Positions 40,062 through 42,361 of a stretch of 64,000 nucleotides of DNA are shown here, in pieces (within the stretch, counting starts at the first letter, position 1; every line of letters begins with the position of its first letter). Source of the stretch: Sandaracinaceae bacterium (GTDB lineage: Bacteria > Myxococcota_A > Polyangia > Polyangiales > Sandaracinaceae); NCBI GenBank assembly GCA_019694315.1, contig JAIBCE010000003.1, positions 1 to 64,000 on the forward strand, read 5' to 3'. The notes under the pieces were generated by a model. That model saw nothing but the letters and a program-made list of their open reading frames with translations. It ran no database searches and was not told the DNA's origin. The position numbers and the translations under genes were made by a program.

Positions 40062-41246
<1,185 letters not shown>

Positions 41247-41257
41247 GGAAAGAAACC

Positions 41258-41314
41258 ATGTCGCTTCTCGTCGGTAAGGACACCAAGGTTCTCTTCCAGG
41301 GCTTTGCTTCCTGA
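41258..41314 (+). pseudogene. duplicated sucD 5' fragment, 18-codon frame
   Basis: ATG at 41258 with a good ribosome site (GAGGA, 41245-41249) opens a frame of 18 codons ending in TGA. Its first 45 bases match the start of sucD (41459-41503) except for one base (C for A at position 7), so the peptide begins [15 protein letters not shown] like SucD. After the match it runs into FAS and stops in the first base pairs of a hairpin. It is either a remnant of the ancestral sucD start split by an insertion or a short coupling frame. Confidence 0.85.
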
Positions 41315-41378
41315 GGGGCCGAGCGGCCCCTCCCCCACGAGAGTGGGGCCCCCTCCCGCTCCGGCCGCCGAAGCGGCC
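41313..41378 (+). repeat. three consecutive GC-rich hairpins between sucC and sucD
   Basis: Perfect stems: GAGGGGCC/GGCCCCTC (41313-41332, loop GAGC), CCCCAC/GTGGGG (41333-41348, loop GAGA) and GGCCGC/GCGGCC (41363-41378, loop CGAA), the last two separated by CCCCCTCCCGCTCC. They follow the short frame directly; the first stem overlaps its stop codon. Confidence 0.8.
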
Positions 41379-41458
41379 GCTCACGCGCGGGGCCCCAACC
41401 CCACTTGCCGGGCTCGCCGAGCTCGCCCGTTCCAACACGAACAACGTGAGAGACAACG

Positions 41459-42361
<903 letters not shown>

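Follow-up and report, generated by a model that had tools for sequence, protein, structure and literature searches.

The window, by which we mean the whole 64,000-nt stretch of Sandaracinaceae DNA that was analysed, very probably carries at its sucC-sucD junction a copy of a mobile, non-coding palindromic repeat that belongs to one uncultured genus of the Sandaracinaceae, gained together with a duplication of the start of sucD. Comparison of the junction with that of the sister genome indicates that at least 49 bp of the gene start were duplicated when the repeat was gained. We read the repeat as a genus-specific element, MIRU- or REP-like in behaviour, whose surviving insertions have been selected for an intact downstream gene. 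The features of the junction are collected in Table 1.

Table 1. Features of the sucC-sucD junction (positions in the window)
Feature	Coordinates	Strand	Basis
sucC, succinate-CoA ligase subunit beta	40062..41246	+	ORF; NCBIfam NF001913, 572 bits; stop TGA 41244-41246
GGAAAG, purine-rich, ribosome-site-like	41247..41252	+	Sequence; position is that of the native site GGAGAG of the sister genome
Upstream (left-over) sucD-start copy, 49 nt	41254..41302	+	Two mismatches with the downstream copy
Truncated mini-frame, 18 codons	41258..41314	+	TGA 41312-41314 inside the repeat
Inserted dispersed-repeat copy: short 5' extension, core and 3' tail	41303..~41438	+	Missing at the G001 junction
Repeat core	41309..41407	+	Model R1, 97 positions, 89 bits
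Hairpin 1, GAGGGGCC-GAGC-GGCCCCTC	41313..41332	+	Covariation
Hairpin 2, CCCCAC-GAGA-GTGGGG	41333..41348	+	Covariation
Hairpin 3, CGGCCGC-CGAA-GCGGCCG	41362..41379	+	Covariation
Hairpin 4, GCGGGG-CCCCAA-CCCCAC, one mismatch in the sucD copy	41387..41404	+	Covariation
TGA and GAGACAACG, probably the duplicated sucC stop and ribosome site	41447..41458	+	9-nt TGA-ATG gap as in the sister genome
Downstream, functional sucD-start copy	41455..41503	+	Alignment to the upstream copy
sucD, succinate-CoA ligase subunit alpha, intact	41459..42361	+	ORF; NCBIfam NF004230, 451 bits

The two copies of the sucD start are identical at 47 of 49 positions (96%), in register throughout, and lie 201 nt apart, start to start. 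As the initial annotation had described, the first 45 bases of sucD (41459-41503) occur again at 41258-41302 with a single mismatch, CTT for ATT at codon 3, and the upstream frame runs for 18 codons before it meets a TGA at the first bases of hairpin 1. The longest exact repeat between the copies is 38 nt, while no more than 14 nt was reached in 300 mononucleotide shuffles of 41001-41700. The upstream copy is found directly 3' of the sucC stop and its GGAAAG and is followed by the four hairpins; the hairpin-bearing, G+C-rich block had been correctly placed between the copies, its length being 152 nt rather than the 156 bases proposed. The 201-nt unit leaves the mini-frame in the same frame as sucD, and both genes, sucC and sucD, are intact and match their NCBIfam families. 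The duplication probably also included the sucC stop and ribosome site, since TGA GAGACAACG ATG at 41447-41461 resembles the TGA GGAGAGAAC ATG junction of the sister genome, with a gap of 9 nt between TGA and ATG in both, although the two are too diverged for certainty.

The state without the insert could be found in relatives, in which a comparison of this junction had been proposed. The sister genome G001 (MAG UWPOB_DELTA5, Sandaracinaceae, from a photosynthetic bioreactor) has sucC and sucD joined, with a single sucD start (locus L021), and this empty site supports the earlier proposal that a hairpin insert entered sucD after codon 15 with duplication of the gene start. In eight further relatives (G002, G003, G004, G006, G007, G008, G014 and G020), the stretches that match the sucC end and the sucD start overlap, and the junction is therefore empty there as well. 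Because the sister genome and these eight more distant relatives all have an uninterrupted junction, the comparison indicates that the insertion and the duplication are derived and arose after the split of the two sister species, that of the window (G000) and G001. At codon 9 both copies in the window read ACC, and G001 has the synonymous ACG, which is most simply explained if the copying followed the divergence of these lineages, in line with the recent event that had been suspected. The CTT at codon 3 (I to L) would then most simply have arisen later, in the upstream copy.

The inserted block is one of many. A search with positions 41230-41520 returned at least 55 matches in the window's own genome, nearly all of them over the part between the two copies. 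An alignment of 32 copies gave a covariance model of 97 positions with four hairpins, which detects at least 71 copies in G000 and at least 36 in G001, the only genome of the same genus (lower bounds, the copies having been gathered by a search that scored limited candidates), together with a single weak match in each of two genomes from another genus of the family. The suggested search for the insert elsewhere in the genome was thus richly answered. An exact-pattern scan of 84,980 species genomes, which may not have included the window's own, returned only G001. The repeat folds into a conserved palindrome: among 853 cells, there are 68 two-sided changes versus 2 one-sided ones, and the covariation score of 0.209 compares with 0.066 in shuffles and is above all slid versions of the structure (0.036 at most). 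Nearly all shuffles are beaten on the structure measures, the sole exception being the number of further pair types. That G-U steps are nearly absent would be more easily explained if selection or correction acted on the hairpin as DNA than if it acted on an RNA form. Beyond the core, the insert has a 3' tail in common with the copies at sdhA-sdhB (similarity to L063 and L029). The copy most similar to the sucD insert, among those found in its own genome, shares 88% identity with it, and a fresh donor is therefore not apparent.

Many copies are in tandem, with a period of about 95-205 nt. At L025, L028, L038, L060, L078, L081 and other loci, the whole repeat or its 3' half forms head-to-tail arrays with a period of about 90-205 nt. 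Dozens of short matches to hairpin 4 and the tail only (GCGGGGCCCCAGCCCCGCTTG) are present in G002 and G007, members of another genus of the family, and perhaps represent a distant relative of the repeat. No Rfam family matched above its gathering score, nor was any match credible, and a literature search for such elements in myxobacteria found nothing relevant. Since no stem followed by a T-run was found on the + strand of 41100-41700, a reading of the hairpin block as an intrinsic terminator was dropped.

The same event can be recognized at three other genes. When the flanks of 86 repeat sites were compared, four showed long duplications, with scores of 31.5-63 against 12.5 (95%) and 16 (99th percentile) for mismatched flanks; none was found at the gene-end copies. 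The four sites are sucC|sucD in the window and sdhA|sdhB, gatA|gatB and nuoM|nuoN in G001, where sdhB, gatB and nuoN were named from our own analysis and sdhA, gatA and nuoM from their position. The duplications measure 49 bp at sucD, 78 bp at sdhB, 34 bp at gatB and 41 bp at nuoN. In all four cases, the repeat is found 10-25 codons into the downstream gene; the left copy adjoins the 5' edge of the repeat and ends 5-8 nt before the start of the model, and the duplication begins no more than about 14 nt upstream of the start codon. The right copy provides a complete gene together with a ribosome site. The left copies have changed at conserved residues (I to L in sucD, I to F in gatB). The gatB and nuoN junctions are empty in G000. 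At its sdhA|sdhB junction, the sdhA stop is followed immediately by a related repeat that shares the tail, and the duplication is absent; one lineage may have lost the left-over copy there. On the minus strand at this junction (L141, G000:C123), tandem copies of the 3' tail (CCTCGCTCGCCTAGCTCGCGAGCTCGTTCCAAGACTCCTACGAGATG) are accompanied by a degenerate second core, possibly making it a VNTR-like locus. A non-coding repeat can thus enter genes of central metabolism (sucD, sdhB and nuoN) and the amidotransferase gene gatB without destroying them, the genes being preserved by copying of their starts in the same event.

The usual position of the repeat is behind a stop codon. At 66 of the 86 sites, a gene-like frame (third-position G+C of at least 78%) that runs in the direction of the repeat ends in a stop codon between 12 nt upstream and 4 nt downstream of the model start; most of these stops are at -5 to -7 relative to it. 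As a control, a second, unrelated repeat family of the same genome was near a stop in 6 of 31 alignments, so that a position at stop codons is not a general property of the repeats in this genome. In 14 of the 15 genes compared, the C terminus falls at the same residue as in the other genome, and the repeat therefore lies behind native stops; in four, the stop codon itself differs between the genomes (comparison read by eye). So exact a placement raises a clear question of targeting versus selection, and could reflect either, between which two genomes cannot tell.

How the repeat reached sucD can be pictured as follows. The hairpin repeat would be copied to a new place by a joining process able to duplicate a variable length of target, most likely by way of a single-stranded DNA hairpin and either repair synthesis or template switching, which we prefer to a classical staggered cut because the duplication length varies and the gene-end copies have none. 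Insertions inside genes would be seen only with a duplication that spans from ribosome site or start codon to the insertion point, as any others would disrupt the gene and be lost. The upstream sucD copy would then be debris, on which initiating ribosomes end at 41312, SucD being made from 41459. Against this explanation count the left edges of the duplications, which lie nearer to the start codon than random target duplication needs, as well as the lack of a linked enzyme, of a fresh donor and of long duplications at gene-end copies.

A dedicated transposase making staggered cuts, with a long, proper target-site duplication and the repeat as its non-autonomous passenger (MITE), is a rather unlikely alternative source of the duplications. 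Most transposases produce a fixed short duplication, and a few insertion sequences produce long variable ones. Like MITEs or insertion sequences with long direct repeats, the four insertions are non-coding and flanked by direct repeats of their target, and the gatB and nuoN units are of equal length (161 nt). The duplications, however, are unequal (34-78 bp) and absent at gene-end copies, the aligned copies showed no terminal inverted repeats, and a parent element was not found. That the mini-frame and hairpins form a selected switch balancing SucC and SucD, as the initial annotation had offered as an alternative, has in its favor a good ribosome site, a strong predicted RNA fold (z = -2.4) and a two-gene operon in which stoichiometry matters. 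Yet the arrangement occurs in no other genome, the only coding change of the upstream copy is non-synonymous, the same repeat follows dozens of unrelated genes, and no T-run follows a stem on the + strand; on conservation we rejected the switch, which is highly improbable. An error in the assembly of this draft genome is a negligible concern. In its favor, the two genomes of the genus are in many pieces (630 and 540 contigs) and the repeat occurs in multiple copies; against it, the two gene-start copies differ, the insert has a sequence of its own, the site is within a 74-kb contig, and the pattern recurs at three other genes, in a genome that was assembled independently.

Two known systems invite comparison with a repeat of this kind. 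The mycobacterial interspersed repetitive units, MIRUs (Supply et al. 1997, cited through PMC12548453 and PMC2734929), integrate in such a way that a frame of their own is coupled to the following gene at a spacing of -4 (PMC12548453). The repeat resembles them as a short (about 40-100 bp; here a core of 97 positions), dispersed and apparently mobile intergenic element that often occurs in tandem and is found where the genes of an operon are only a few bases apart. At gatB and nuoN, moreover, the start of the gene overlaps the upstream stop, and a mini-frame open through the whole repeat ends in a TGA that overlaps the true ATG (ATGA), giving the same -4 spacing. This overlap is absent at sucD and sdhB, gene-end copies falling outside the comparison. 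Without the TGA at 41312, the sucD mini-frame would continue to a TGA located 12 nt upstream of the true start; that of sdhB does not fit the coupling frame. Three of four units with a fitting frame are not significant (about 0.11 by chance, by our estimate), and we therefore offer coupling only as a hypothesis. Whatever their role, such left-over mini-frames mislead gene prediction at operon junctions. Unlike MIRUs, the repeat is from the phylum Myxococcota and has four covarying hairpins, most of its copies follow a gene-end stop rather than adjoin a start, and its in-gene copies carry gene-start duplications; a literature search for papers on a DTGA target site of MIRUs found none. That it is a MIRU-like element, which would take stop/start junctions as its target and keep downstream translation coupled through its own frame, is conceivable though not the likelier case: the stops in gene orientation at most sites, the conserved C termini and the open gatB and nuoN mini-frames argue for it, and the early stops of the sucD and sdhB mini-frames argue against. 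We would regard as doubtful the bolder idea of a new class of mobile hairpin element, steered to translation stops, duplicating the downstream start and carrying ribosomes through on a chimeric mini-frame, which would make it a myxobacterial counterpart of MIRUs with a mechanism of its own, acting where genes overlap or nearly touch.

REP sequences and BIMEs, which are mobilised by RAYTs (PMC2817692), are likewise abundant extragenic hairpins with compensatory changes, and the genomes here do have genes for IS200/IS605-type (Y1) transposases, with 6 Y1_Tnp matches in G000 and 11 in G001 (17 in total). The present unit differs from REPs in its length of about 100 nt, four stems and single orientation. 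REPs are reported to flank the genes of their RAYTs invariably, and IS200/IS605 elements are reportedly without larger target duplications (PMC2817692). No copy of the repeat, and thus no transposase gene flanked by it in inverted orientation, was found at the eight of the 17 Y1 loci that were examined, and a link to a RAYT was rejected on these grounds. We file the repeat under neither name, since the REP/RAYT comparison failed at the eight loci examined and the likeness to MIRUs is one of arrangement.

The family used above as a control is itself G+C-rich and multi-hairpin. It is represented in G000 by L132:690-822 (G000:C295) and 45 further matches (GCTTCCCGCGCCTCCGGCGC...), many of them 92% identical, dispersed and mostly away from stop codons. 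At one junction, which we take to be that of 2-oxoacid dehydrogenase E1 beta and E2, this second family occupies the post-stop site at which G001 has the first repeat (L076). Two non-stop copies of the first repeat in G001 (L092 and L100) lie directly on the T-run of an apparent intrinsic terminator, that is, at the 3' end of a transcript.
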